A DNA stretch of 34,341 nucleotides from Patescibacteria group bacterium. Its GTDB lineage: Bacteria > Patescibacteriota > Patescibacteriia > Patescibacteriales > BM507. The notes under the pieces are model-generated. The model ran no database searches. It worked only from the letters and a program-made list of their open reading frames with translations, and was not told the origin of the DNA. Position numbers and translations under genes: made by a program. Shown piece by piece: positions 6,498 to 18,040 of this stretch; position 1 is the stretch's first letter, and each line of letters opens with the position of its first letter. Where the stretch lies: positions 1 to 34,341 of the forward strand of contig JAQIDC010000003.1 in NCBI GenBank assembly GCA_027858235.1, written 5' to 3'.

Positions 6498-6524
6498 CTG
6501 TGGACAAATAAGTAACTGCCTAAG

Positions 6525-6545
6525 TTCAACAAGTAAGTGCAACAC
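6525..6545 (+). repeat. IS30 left inverted repeat
   Basis: TTCAACAAGTAAGTGCAACAC. Just inside is a dyad, TTTGATATAATCAAA (6546-6560), whose centre is a TATAAT -10 box, so the transposase promoter overlaps the element end. Confidence 0.85.
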
Positions 6546-6564
6546 TTTGATATAATCAAAGTAT

Positions 6565-7575
6565 ATGCAATATAAACATTTTACAATTGAAGAAAGAGAA
6601 ACAATCCAAGAAATGCTGTGGCAGAGAAAATCAATTCGAGCTATAGCTAAAAGATTAAACAGGAGTCCATCCTCGATATCAAGAGAGGTAAATAAAAACC
6701 GTGATTCTATTAACAGACGGCAGTATACTCCCAGAATAGCTCATGAAAAAGCTCTTATAAATAGATCAAGAAGAGGGAGAGAAAAACGTCTAAAAAGCGA
6801 AAAAGTCAGGTATTATGTAATTAAACATCTAAAGCTAGGCTGGTCGCCAGAACAAATATCAGGTACGATTGAGGATAATATTAATGAAACAATATCATTC
6901 GAAACAATCTATCAGTATGTTTATGCCCAAATACACAGAAATGGACATGGTTATACAAAGCCGGGTTGTGAAGATTTACGTCCTTACTTAGCTAGACGAA
7001 GAAAGAGAAGAAATCAACAAAGTGGACGAAAAAGTCACCGTATAGACAAAGGTCCATTGCCATCAATAGAGGATAGACCACAAGAAGTTGGTTTAAGAAT
7101 AGATGTTGGCCATTGGGAAAATGACCTAATAGTCTCCAATCAATCAAAATATAAATTAAAAACAATTAATGAACGTTACTCTGGACTAGTATTTATTAAA
7201 AAGATAAAAAATGGCACCATAGAGGAATCAAACAAGGCTATGATTGAAAGACTATCTGAAATACCAAGACAGTATTTAAAAACGCTCACAATGGATAGGG
7301 GCTCTGAAAATCTAGGCTATCAGGAGATTGAAAATACTCTAGGTTTTGATTGTTTTTATGCTCATTCGTATTGTTCCTGGGAGCGAGGTTCAAATGAAAA
7401 TCTAAATGGATTAATTCGCAGGTTTCTACCCAAGAAAACTGATTTTAGAATAGTCACAAATAATGATATTAAAAAAATTGAATACTTATTAAACTCTAGA
7501 CCAAGAAAAAGACTTGGCTGGAAGACACCTTATGAGGTATTCTATGAGATGACAGGTGTTGCACTTCAGAGTTGA
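6565..7575 (+). CDS. IS30-family transposase
   Basis: A full-length 336-aa DDE transposase. The N-terminal helix-turn-helix (IEERETIQEMLWQRKSIRAI, about 8-27, continuing through PSSISREV) binds the ends. The RNase H-fold catalytic triad is Asp187 (GHWENDLIV), Asp244 (TMDRGSEN) and Glu278 (RGSNENLNGLIRRFLPK), with 33 residues between the last two, the spacing of the IS30 family. No frameshift or missing catalytic residue, so it may be active. No Shine-Dalgarno site; the ATG is about 9 bases after the -10 box (TATAAT, 6551-6556), so the mRNA is nearly leaderless. Codon use is like its neighbours. Confidence 0.95.
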   Translation: MQYKHFTIEERETIQEMLWQRKSIRAIAKRLNRSPSSISREVNKNRDSINRRQYTPRIAHEKALINRSRRGREKRLKSEKVRYYVIKHLKLGWSPEQISGTIEDNINETISFETIYQYVYAQIHRNGHGYTKPGCEDLRPYLARRRKRRNQQSGRKSHRIDKGPLPSIEDRPQEVGLRIDVGHWENDLIVSNQSKYKLKTINERYSGLVFIKKIKNGTIEESNKAMIERLSEIPRQYLKTLTMDRGSENLGYQEIENTLGFDCFYAHSYCSWERGSNENLNGLIRRFLPKKTDFRIVTNNDIKKIEYLLNSRPRKRLGWKTPYEVFYEMTGVALQS

Positions 7576-7576
7576 A
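7556..7576 (-). repeat. IS30 right inverted repeat
   Basis: Complement of the left end with mismatches in the central five bases. It contains the transposase stop codon (TGA at 7573-7575). Confidence 0.85.
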
Positions 7577-7592
7577 TCTACCCTGAGAGGGG

Positions 7593-7643: not shown

Positions 7644-7762
7644 TATAAATCAATTGAAACGGGGAGGCACGACAAGCATAGGGATTGGCGAGAGGGTACT
7701 CCGGCTACGGCTAGACTGCATCTAGCAAAGATTCTTTGCCTGCCCGTTTTAGTTGATTTATA
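7644..7762 (+). ncRNA. Novel structured RNA, copy A
   Basis: No known RNA family recognised. The 5' arm 7644-7669 and 3' arm 7737-7762 pair over 26 positions with one G-G mismatch and two G-U wobbles. Inside, the segment GGCACGACAAGCAT (7666-7679) is shared with copies B and C. An inner helix forms from AGGGATT (about 7680-7686) and GATTCTT (7730-7736). A small hairpin GGC-UACG-GCU (about 7703-7712) is followed by GCTAGA/TCTAGC pairing as an alternative. GC content is well above neighbouring coding DNA. No ORF. It is driven by the promoter at 7593 and followed directly by copy B. Confidence 0.75.
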
Positions 7763-7770
7763 AAGGTCCC

Positions 7771-7870
7771 CTTTGGTGGGGGAGGCGCGACAAGCACAGG
7801 GGTTTGCGATAGGGTTTATCTGGCTACGGCTCGATAACATCTAACAATAATTCTTTGCCTTCCACCAAAG
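7771..7870 (+). ncRNA. Novel structured RNA, copy B
   Basis: The closing stem CTTTGGTGG...GGAGGC (7771-7786) pairs with GCCTTCCACCAAAG (7857-7870) apart from a 2-base bulge; its primary sequence differs from A and C, so pairing and not sequence is kept. The conserved core is GGCGCGACAAGCAC (7784-7797). The inner helix is AGGGGTT with AATTCTT. The hairpin has UACG as loop, with the lower stem TATC...GATA: GGC/GCU as in A but different outer pairs. It begins 8 bases after the stem of copy A, so A and B probably form one tandem transcript. Confidence 0.72.
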
Positions 7871-7879
7871 ATGATCTTA

Positions 7880-7908
7880 TTGACAGGTTAAAAAATATTT
7901 TATAGTAT
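7880..7908 (+). promoter_or_regulatory. Putative promoter of the GC-rich RNA block
   Basis: TTGACA (7880-7885), 17 bases, TAGTAT (7903-7908). The -10 is weaker than at 7593. A transcript starting near 7915 would read through the folded block to the terminator at 8554. Confidence 0.5.
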
Positions 7909-7939
7909 TTATTGATGGTACATTAAATATAAATAAAGA

Positions 7940-7986
7940 TTAAAGTGTGTAGCTAAAGCTTAAGGAGTTTTAACTACACACTTTAA
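7940..7986 (+). other. 13-bp stem-loop
   Basis: TTAAAGTGTGTAG (7940-7952) pairs perfectly with CTACACACTTTAA (7974-7986) around a 21-base loop. It is followed by an AT stretch but only five Ts in a row, so it could be a weak terminator for A/B or the 5' domain of the next RNA. Confidence 0.6.
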
Positions 7987-7989
7987 ATA

Positions 7990-8546
7990 TATTTTTATTC
8001 GCCGCGATGTATATAGCATTGCATTCCTTTAATACCGCTCATGCCGAAGGAGATAAAAATGGCCCAAAACAAAGGACAGCCCAATGTTTAAGGTTCTAGT
8101 AGATGAAAAATCAATCTGCCGGCGCAATTACCTGGTCACGACCAACAAATAACCGGTCCGGCCCGCGGTAACGCCAAATTACGAGAGCTTCTCTCGTAAA
8201 ACATCGTATTGGAGGTCTCCATGAATCGACGCCCTCGCGACAGAATCTAGTTAGGCTCACCCACGCCTTCCCAGCGCAAAGTAGGTTTTATTTTGAGATC
8301 TTGCAGAAGAAGATAAATAAAATCTAAGGGTTTTTTAAAAAAGGAAGAAATGGGAGCGAAATCGCTTCCAGTGGAGCGGACTGAGGTCCGCAAGTTGCGC
8401 CCCGAGATTAATGGGGATGGCCATTACTGGTAAGATTAAATCCCGGTTTAATGGCTTCGAGAATTGGTCCTCGGTTCGCTTCACAAAAAAAGGGACGGGC
8501 CCTTGAACCCGAATCCAGCCAGGCACCCATTGAAAAGGGCGGTGCC
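7990..8546 (+). ncRNA. GC-rich folded non-coding block
   Basis: About 550 bases with no credible ORF on either strand and much higher GC than the surrounding genes, the usual mark of functional RNA in an AT-rich genome. Seen on the + strand: GGCG-(CAA)-TTACC (8121-8132) pairing with GGTAACGCC (8167-8175) around two inner hairpins; TTACGAGAG/CTCTCGTAA (8179-8199, perfect); GGGAGCG/CGCTTCC (8352-8369); GCGGAC-TGAG-GTCCGC (8376-8391); ATTAAA/TTTAAT near 8434-8451; GGCACC/GGTGCC (8522-8546). I looked for RNase P (GAGGAAAGUCC, ACAGAA...GCUUA), tmRNA (tag ending in Ala-Ala, T-arm), SRP RNA and 6S and could not make any fit convincingly. It may be one long RNA or two. Strand is inferred from the promoters and 3' terminator. 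Confidence 0.6.
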
Positions 8547-8553
8547 AAAAAAT

Positions 8554-8582
8554 AGCCACCTGGTTTATATCAGGTGGCTTTT
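8554..8582 (+). terminator. Terminator of the RNA block
   Basis: AGCCACCTG (8554-8562) and CAGGTGGCT (8571-8579), perfect 9-bp stem, 8-base loop, then TTTT. Confidence 0.85.
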
Positions 8583-8610: not shown

Positions 8611-8644
8611 AGACCTTGGAGGTCTTTAAGGACCTCCAAGGTCT
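8611..8644 (-). terminator. 14-bp perfect inverted repeat, likely terminator
   Basis: AGACCTTGGAGGTC (8611-8624) and its exact complement (8631-8644) around TTTAAG. On the minus strand it lies about 60 bases after the oxidoreductase stop and is followed by TTTTC, so it probably terminates that gene; it may work both ways. Confidence 0.65.
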
Positions 8645-8704: not shown

Positions 8705-10063
8705 TTACTTTATTTTCTTCTTCTTAAAAAAATCCATTACCTTCCCCATAGCATCTTCACTGGCCATAACAATAGGATTCATAAATGGCCAAGGGCTGAG
8801 AGAGGGGTGAGCTATGTAGTTGTATTTCATTAATTTTAATATACTTAGCTTAAGACCTATTCCCATGCTAGCAATTTCTAGAAACCCTGTTACTCCATTT
8901 CCATAAGCTTCAGCGCCCACTATTTTCATTCTGGGTCCAGCAAAAATTAATTTAAATGAAAGCGGTTTTTTGCTTTTTAGGTCATCATAGACATTTGTCG
9001 TTTCAGCGTAGCCTGTAACAATGAATTTGAACTTCTTTTTTGCTTGATTTTCGTTTAAACCAACCTGGCCATATTCACGGCCGAGTATTTTAAAAGCAAA
9101 AGCATTTGTTGTCCCCTGATATTTGATAGGAAAGTTTGCAAGCTGGTAACCTACTATTTTTGCTTGCTGAATAGCAACACTCGCTAATTGACTAATAGTG
9201 TTCTCTCCTGTAATGGCTGAGACAGGCATAACACAATCACCGCAAGCAAAAATATTTTTGACATTTGTTTCCATCTTTTCATTAACAATGATGCCGTGAC
9301 TGCCAAGTTTTATTCCAGTATTTTTAGCGATCTCTATGTTTGGCTTAACTCCTGTTGCAATAATAACAATATCAGCTTCTAATTTTTCTTTTTTGTTGTT
9401 TCTTTTAATCTTAATTACTTTTTTATCTTTAATATCTTCAATTTCAATAATATCTGTATTAAATAAAATATTTATCTGATTGTCTCTTAGATGATTTACA
9501 ATCTTAGTAGAAAATTCTAAATCTGCCAAAGCAGGTGATATTCTCTCTGCTTTTTCAAGAATAGTTACATCTATGTTCTTTTCTCTGAATGCAGCAGCCA
9601 TTTCGCATCCTATAATTCCTGCTCCAATGACAATTGCTTTTTTAACATTTTTTAATTTTTCATCTATTTGTTTAATGTCCTTACTCTCTCTGACGGTGTG
9701 ATAATTATATTCAGTTAATCCAGGAATTTTTGGAACAAATGGTCTCGCGCCAGTAGCGATAACAAGATAGTCATAAACAAAAAAATTATTCTTATTTGTA
9801 ATAACCACTTTTTTTGCTGTATCTATACTTATCGCTTTTTCATGAACCACTTCAACACCAAAGTTTGTGATCATTGATTCTGCTTGAACAGCATCACTAA
9901 GTTTTGCTTGATCATTAATAACATAAGGAGAACTACAGCGACAATATATGTCTTCCTCTTCGGAGAGAATAGTGGCGCTAAATTTTTTTGGTCTTAATTG
10001 GGTAGATACAATTGCACTAAACATCCCGGCCCCACCACAACCAATAACTAATATTTTTTTCAT
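8705..10063 (-). CDS. FAD/NAD(P) disulfide-reductase-family oxidoreductase (Nox/CoA-disulfide reductase-like)
   Basis: A 452-aa flavoprotein of the pyridine nucleotide-disulfide oxidoreductase class. The FAD-binding GCGGAG is at residues 8-13, the NAD-binding VIGAGIIGCEMA near 146-157, and the second FAD motif FACGDCV near 272-278. The segment CRCSSPYVI places Cys43 where NADH oxidases and CoA-disulfide reductases carry the single redox-active cysteine (usually C-G-x-P-Y). It probably uses NAD(P)H to reduce oxygen, peroxide or a small disulfide, giving redox balance or oxygen defence. Single gene with its own promoter at 10091-10119. No ribosome site. The substrate is not determinable from sequence. 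Confidence 0.88.
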   Translation of the reverse strand: MKKILVIGCGGAGMFSAIVSTQLRPKKFSATILSEEEDIYCRCSSPYVINDQAKLSDAVQAESMITNFGVEVVHEKAISIDTAKKVVITNKNNFFVYDYLVIATGARPFVPKIPGLTEYNYHTVRESKDIKQIDEKLKNVKKAIVIGAGIIGCEMAAAFREKNIDVTILEKAERISPALADLEFSTKIVNHLRDNQINILFNTDIIEIEDIKDKKVIKIKRNNKKEKLEADIVIIATGVKPNIEIAKNTGIKLGSHGIIVNEKMETNVKNIFACGDCVMPVSAITGENTISQLASVAIQQAKIVGYQLANFPIKYQGTTNAFAFKILGREYGQVGLNENQAKKKFKFIVTGYAETTNVYDDLKSKKPLSFKLIFAGPRMKIVGAEAYGNGVTGFLEIASMGIGLKLSILKLMKYNYIAHPSLSPWPFMNPIVMASEDAMGKVMDFFKKKKIK

Positions 10064-10245: not shown

Positions 10246-10371
10246 AAAGGTCATTTTAAACGGGCTAGGCACGACAAGCATGGGGATTTAACGAGAAGGG
10301 CGTAGTTGGCTAAGGCTAACTTGCAACTACTTTAGAATTTCCTGCCTACCCATTTAAGTTGATCTTTTTTT
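10246..10371 (+). ncRNA. Novel structured RNA, copy C (free-standing)
   Basis: Third member of the family seen at 7644 and 7771. The closing stem runs from AAAGGTCA...TTAAACGGGCTAGGCA (10246-10271) to TGCCTACCCATTTAA...GATCTTT (10343-10367), with a bulged C and wobbles. Shared core GGCACGACAAGCAT (10268-10281). Inner helix GGGGATT (10282-10288) with AATTTCC (10336-10342). The hairpin GTTGGC-TAAG-GCTAAC replaces the UACG loop of A/B, and an alternative GTAGTTG/CAACTAC pairing is possible. The T-run at 10365-10371 ends the transcript, giving a discrete RNA of about 130-135 nt with its own promoter and no ORF. Confidence 0.78.
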
Positions 10372-10377
10372 GTATTC

Positions 10378-17967: not shown

Positions 17968-18040
17968 TGGAGATAGTAGAAGGATTTGAACCTACGACTT
18001 TGCATGCCAATGCAATACTCTACCACTGAGTTATACTATC
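17968..18040 (-). tRNA. tRNA with atypical anticodon arm (Gly-like body, GGC in loop)
   Basis: Minus strand: acceptor GATAGTA/TACTATC, U at position 73, encoded CCA, D-arm ACTC-AGTGGTA-GAGT, T-arm GTAGG-TTCAAAT-CCTTC with one T-T mismatch. The acceptor can extend to 9 bp with flanking GA/TC. The anticodon arm reads TTGCA-TTGGCA-TGCAA, a 5-bp stem with a 6-base loop, or TTGC/GCAA with 8 bases. GGC would mean Ala, but the body (U73, D-loop) is Gly-like. The complement of the arm would show GCC (Gly). Functional identity is uncertain. Confidence 0.75.

Follow-up and report, generated by a model that had tools for sequence, protein, structure and literature searches.

What does the GC-rich block encode that separates a pair of small RNA genes from an oxidoreductase gene in a Parcubacteria genome? 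We examined it in a window of 34,341 nt, one of the 72 contigs of the 1.43-Mb host genome (G000). An initial annotation had read the block as a long noncoding RNA selected for its structure, with about 650 nt between a promoter and a terminator. Our own best reading, to which we assign a probability of about 0.4, is that it is a genus-restricted, fast-evolving, mRNA-like transcription unit that carries micro-ORFs and whose folded 3′ segment is specific to its lineage.

How is the block delimited, and what surrounds it? It adjoins the tandem RNA genes A (7644–7763) and B (7762–7880), both on the plus strand, as had been described. The proposed promoter is present directly 5′ of the block: TTGACA-17-TAGTAT (7880–7908, plus) agrees with the sigma-70 consensus at 10 of 12 positions, a consensus match of a kind found three times overall, not above the 2.4 found in shuffled sequence. 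The 3′ end is formed by an intrinsic terminator–like hairpin with a T-rich tail (8554–8579, plus), which has 11 pairs rather than the nine originally given; such sites number seven against 1.2 in shuffles (both strands scanned). High GC content was likewise claimed for the whole block. It holds for 8030–8550 (0.478, versus 0.342 for the entire window) and not for the first 120 nt past the promoter (7910–8029), which are AT rich (0.275). A leader hairpin at 7940–7986 (plus) has 21-nt arms that are 90% complementary and an AAGGAG motif near its loop; it is a possible attenuator. The next gene 3′ of the block encodes a flavin adenine dinucleotide (FAD)-dependent oxidoreductase (8705–10063, Pyr_redox_2) and is convergent, so the block leads into no gene on its own strand. 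An inverted repeat with 17-nt arms (8611–8644), terminator-like on the minus strand, lies between the two. On the other side, between an MFS gene and the A RNA, is a transposase gene with imperfect terminal repeats seen by eye (6524–7580), which is absent in the only other genome of the genus that we compared (G001, hereafter the genus mate). Helix–turn–helix (HTH) domains were found in this gene (6565–7575, just 5′ of the A/B RNAs), which we take to be an IS30-type transposase; as a query, it found no relative among viral contigs. Elsewhere in the window (17968–18040, minus), ARAGORN assigns an unusual two-base anticodon to a tRNA-like gene.

Is there coding potential in the block? The description of it as free of open reading frames holds for the plus strand at lengths of at least 60 aa; it does not hold for four short ORFs led by Shine–Dalgarno (SD) sites on that strand, nor for a 74-aa open frame on the minus strand (8335–8559). 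Defining an SD-led start as a start codon 4 to 9 nt after an SD-like motif, we counted four on the plus strand of 7938–8552, clearly above chance (shuffle mean 0.29; four reached in none of 1,000 shuffles), and one on the minus strand, a number reached by 15% of shuffles. As a control, we counted these starts, those of genes among them, along the whole plus strand of the window: 38 in 34.3 kb, or ∼1.1 per kb, against four in 0.6 kb here. The block of the genus mate has two SD-led starts on the same strand, each with AGGAGG, against 0.16 expected (2.1% of shuffles), and none on the opposite strand. All micro-ORFs of the window block are on the plus strand. ORF 1 (8059–8091, 10 aa) follows the SD site AAGGAG at 8047–8052, possibly paired with an upstream UCCUU, and its end is overlapped in a different frame by ORF 2 (8084–8152, 22 aa). 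ORF 3 (8221–8250, 9 aa) is preceded by GGAGG (8211–8215). ORF 4 (8350–8433, 27 aa) is overlapped, again in a different frame, by ORF 5 (8417–8506, 29 aa, or 31 aa from an ATG at 8411), the only one of the five with no SD site by the pattern used. The peptides tested had no Pfam or PHROGs match, which says little for such short chains, and two of them had no match in plasmids or phages (one collection each).

How far does the block extend beyond this genome? In the genus mate, the order of features is the same—MFS gene, A RNA, B RNA, GC-rich block, oxidoreductase gene, C RNA—without the IS30-type element. The mate's block is about half as long (∼280 nt), has a GC content of 0.529 against a background of 0.349, and also ends in a terminator-like hairpin, judged by sequence and fold, whose loop lies outside the limits of our terminator scan and which the scan omitted. 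Position, high GC, strong ribosome-binding sites before tiny frames, and a terminator are thus shared by both species. GC content and terminators have been kept and the sequence has not. Only 7962–8154 (plus) could be aligned to the mate's block (L016, 2376–2177, minus), and this depends on the scoring: With lenient gaps the score is 58, whereas the null maximum is 44 (0 of 500) and none of 96 other stretches of the window exceeds 39. Strict gap scoring gives 20 versus 17.1, not significant, and a global alignment puts parts elsewhere. Identity in the alignable part is 58% over gapped columns (composition-shuffled maximum 52.5%), versus 92% for the C RNA, 82% for B, 76% for A, 74% for the oxidoreductase gene, and 68% for the MFS gene. 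Neither 8110–8310 nor 8300–8530 aligned with the mate's block. About 375 nt of the window block lack a counterpart there: None was found for the GC-rich segment 8155–8530 (plus, GC 0.492), which holds ORFs 3 to 5 and the folded 3′ domain, nor for the best-folded part, 8350–8486.

Outside the genus, the block disappears from view. Among 59 relatives and 378 genomes of the phylum, blastn found nothing longer than ∼30 nt beyond the host genome, and nothing in plasmids or phages. Matches of 26 to 30 nt in two of the 59 and two of the 378 genomes were taken as chance, three of the four falling on an AT-rich run (8314–8343). When the mate's block was used as the query against 111 genomes of the order (E up to 0.01), it did not find the window block, which indicates that the two have diverged far; besides itself, it gave short matches in two genomes only (23 and 42 nt). 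A 16-mer of the long stem occurs in three viral contigs, where extension ends at 16 to 24 nt, as chance predicts, and a 22-mer and a 26-mer of the mate's block occur in none. In a more distant genome (G038), the oxidoreductase gene is 56% identical, and A, B, and the block are not beside it. Across 43 copies of the A/B RNA family with at least 300 nt downstream, only B of the window is followed by SD-rich noncoding DNA, in a screen insensitive enough—it masks open frames of at least 70 codons—to pass over the mate's own block.

Are the micro-ORFs themselves maintained? The first ORF of the window (10 aa) and that of the mate (27 aa) resemble each other at the start only, with a BLOSUM score of 13 over nine residues that is reached in 0.35% of unanchored comparisons. 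A competing similarity in a different frame scores 43, against a shuffle mean of 33.4 and a maximum of 48. The two similarities are weak and mutually exclusive, and neither appears firm; one of them would mean a shift between the reading frames of the two copies. Judged from these two genomes, the frames seem not to have been kept, which counts against the reading as a micro-ORF mRNA. Nor did the antisense strand yield a recognizable gene. The 74-aa frame of the window had no match in Pfam or the Protein Data Bank (PDB). Antisense to the mate's block, directly after its oxidoreductase gene, is a 104-aa open frame (L016, 2155–2469, plus) for which neither Pfam nor plasmids gave a match and which resembles no frame of the window; antisense translations of the two blocks score 32, not above shuffles (mean 34.3). 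A frame of that length arises in 15 of 1,000 shuffles of the mate's block, so we do not discard it altogether.

Frames that differ between species also suit another explanation, namely that the block was inserted beside the A/B RNAs, as foreign DNA of high GC content or as a broken gene, and has since been decaying or drifting neutrally, its SD sites and hairpins being remnants or by-products of composition. Consistent with this are the lack of a long match anywhere searched, the ∼58% identity against 74 to 92% in the oxidoreductase gene and the three RNAs and 68% in the MFS gene, the ∼375 nt without a counterpart in the mate, and the presumed IS30-type transposase gene just upstream (6565–7575). 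We hold it to be possible yet doubtful, as high GC, an enrichment of SD-led starts, and closing terminators are found in both species. The GC content has stayed high in an AT-rich genome while the sequence drifted, which would argue against simple decay.

Could the block instead act through its structure? Its folding is strand specific: On the plus strand, 7990–8550 is more stable than 100 of 100 shuffles (z = −4.06), whereas on the minus strand, 36 of 100 shuffles are equally stable (z = −0.49). This asymmetry also fits a function at the RNA level and in that respect speaks against an mRNA. In 280-nt pieces, z is −2.3 (from 7991), −1.4 (from 8131), and −4.1 (8271–8550), and only the last stands out from a background grid of 244 pieces (mean −0.48, SD 1.56, 25 shuffles each). 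That value is notable without being unique, because z falls to between −4 and −7 in grid pieces that contain a tRNA or a terminator; some plain gene pieces are similar to or lower than the block. The stems at 8179–8199, 8376–8391, and 8352–8369 exist as first described, that at 8179–8199 (plus) being a perfect 9-bp hairpin (TTACGAGAG/CTCTCGTAA); in the minimum-energy fold, a 16-bp stem (8371–8386, partners up to 8484) replaces the hairpin at 8376–8391. The most strongly folded domain (8350–8486, plus; −64.8 kcal/mol) consists of a hairpin at 8351–8370 and this 16-bp stem, which closes at 8484. The excess of folding is thus limited to the 3′ part rather than spread over 650 nt.

A young, lineage-specific structured noncoding RNA with 8350–8486 as its functional core would account for the strand-specific excess, the z of the 3′ piece, and the clear borders at both ends. 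We consider it unlikely. In the 5′ and middle pieces, folding barely exceeds the background; comparable or even lower z values occur elsewhere in the window over terminators, tRNAs, and plain genes; and the SD-led starts sit poorly with this reading. There is furthermore no homologue for a covariation test: None with compensatory changes was found in the 59 relatives, the 378 phylum genomes, or the genus mate. A structured part should persist in the sister species, and it is the best-folded part that is missing there, which favors an mRNA-like unit over a long RNA selected for structure. The original proposal therefore fails on conservation, and its “noncoding” is opposed by the SD-led starts; what stays plausible is a bounded plus-strand transcription unit whose 3′ part is folded.

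Known RNA families offer no better identity. An Rfam cmscan of the block identified no RNA at gathering score, in line with the initial judgment that it resembles none of rnpB, ssrA, ffs, and 6S. Matches at E up to 10 were rejected: They belong to unrelated families, lie far below gathering scores, and mostly cover plain hairpins (7940–7986, 8554–8579, and 8611–8644). The rnpB and tmRNA genes sit elsewhere in the same genome, on C68 and C66. The small signal recognition particle (SRP) RNA (RF00169) and 6S RNA (RF00013) had no match in 13 genomes (the host and 12 relatives) at E 0.001; the SRP search, which covered the small form, was positive in 11 of 14 control genomes. Formally, the 6S and SRP genes are thus unplaced, and the block could be a divergent copy of one of these or of RNase P RNA or tmRNA. 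We regard this as extremely improbable, as a housekeeping RNA would be conserved and the block is not kept even in the genus mate. The RNase P RNA of this genus is long—639 nt in the host (C68, 7016–7654) and 692 nt in the mate (G001, C48, 2421–3112), compared with 364 to 506 nt in the other seven genomes searched—and given a model of 367 positions, it likely carries large insertions. Among large structured bacterial RNAs, OLE, GOLLD, ROOL, and HEARO are widely conserved families. The block likewise is GC rich, folded, and several hundred nucleotides long; however, none of these families was matched by cmscan, and wide conservation is lacking. Full-text literature searches on Parcubacteria, Patescibacteria, and the Candidate Phyla Radiation gave nothing pertinent on structured or small RNAs or small SD-led proteins; the only match concerns nanohaloarchaea (PMC10266531).

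How might an mRNA-like unit work here? Transcription would start at the 7880 promoter and end at the 8554–8579 hairpin; transcripts begun at the A/B RNA promoter (7593) might also read through into the block. Three or four SD sites would admit ribosomes, which would make peptides of 9 to 31 residues, and the folded, GC-rich 3′ segment, added in this lineage, would stabilize or regulate the message. In its shortness, strong ribosome-binding sites, overlapping tiny ORFs, and intrinsic terminator, the block resembles the general class of leader and small-peptide transcripts that carry several short ORFs behind SD sites. It differs in having no same-strand downstream gene, peptides without a family, and no conserved frame. 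Small peptide frames beside small RNA genes also call to mind type I toxin–antitoxin loci, but the predicted peptides are not hydrophobic, being polar or basic, and no antisense overlap with the A/B RNAs is seen.

What are the neighboring RNAs? A, B, and a third copy, C (10246–10372, plus), each measure ∼120 nt; their long closing stem shows covariation and is topped by an invariant bulge, CGACAAGCA. They have no Rfam match. A family model (R1) built from 18 sequences matches 95 of 111 genomes of the order. Among 379 genomes drawn from the phylum, 28 are positive: all 4 that belong to the order and 24 of the 29 from the rest of its class, with no match outside the class. In the consensus, 97.1% of cells are paired, and 15 pairs have changes in both partners, against a mean of 7.6 in shuffles (0 of 500), a count favored by the structure having been predicted from the same alignment. 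With mostly one locus per genome, the family has the look of a housekeeping-type Parcubacteria RNA that is as yet undescribed. A tandem A/B beside a GC-rich block was seen in this genus only; G388, of the same class, has two copies ∼215 nt apart. In the window, the T-run of the B terminator is interrupted (GATCTTATTG, TTATTG) compared with the mate (GATCTTTTTTTC, TTTTTTT), and the TTGACA box begins where it is broken (7865–7885). Because of this break, transcription could read through from B into the block. The genus-specific duplication of a class-wide small RNA next to the block would then allow a joint unit, in which a recruited peptide-coding transcript is reached from the A/B promoter and the A/B RNAs control translation of its micro-ORFs; we think this very unlikely.

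As a long noncoding RNA, the block matters less than initially hoped, and by itself it is only moderately interesting. For RNA biology in these organisms, the R1 family offers the better lead, as it occurs in most genomes of the order and in many of the class. These ultra-small bacteria are thought to live attached to hosts, and their biology is poorly known. If translated, the block would illustrate how short and fast-changing peptide genes can be in such cells.
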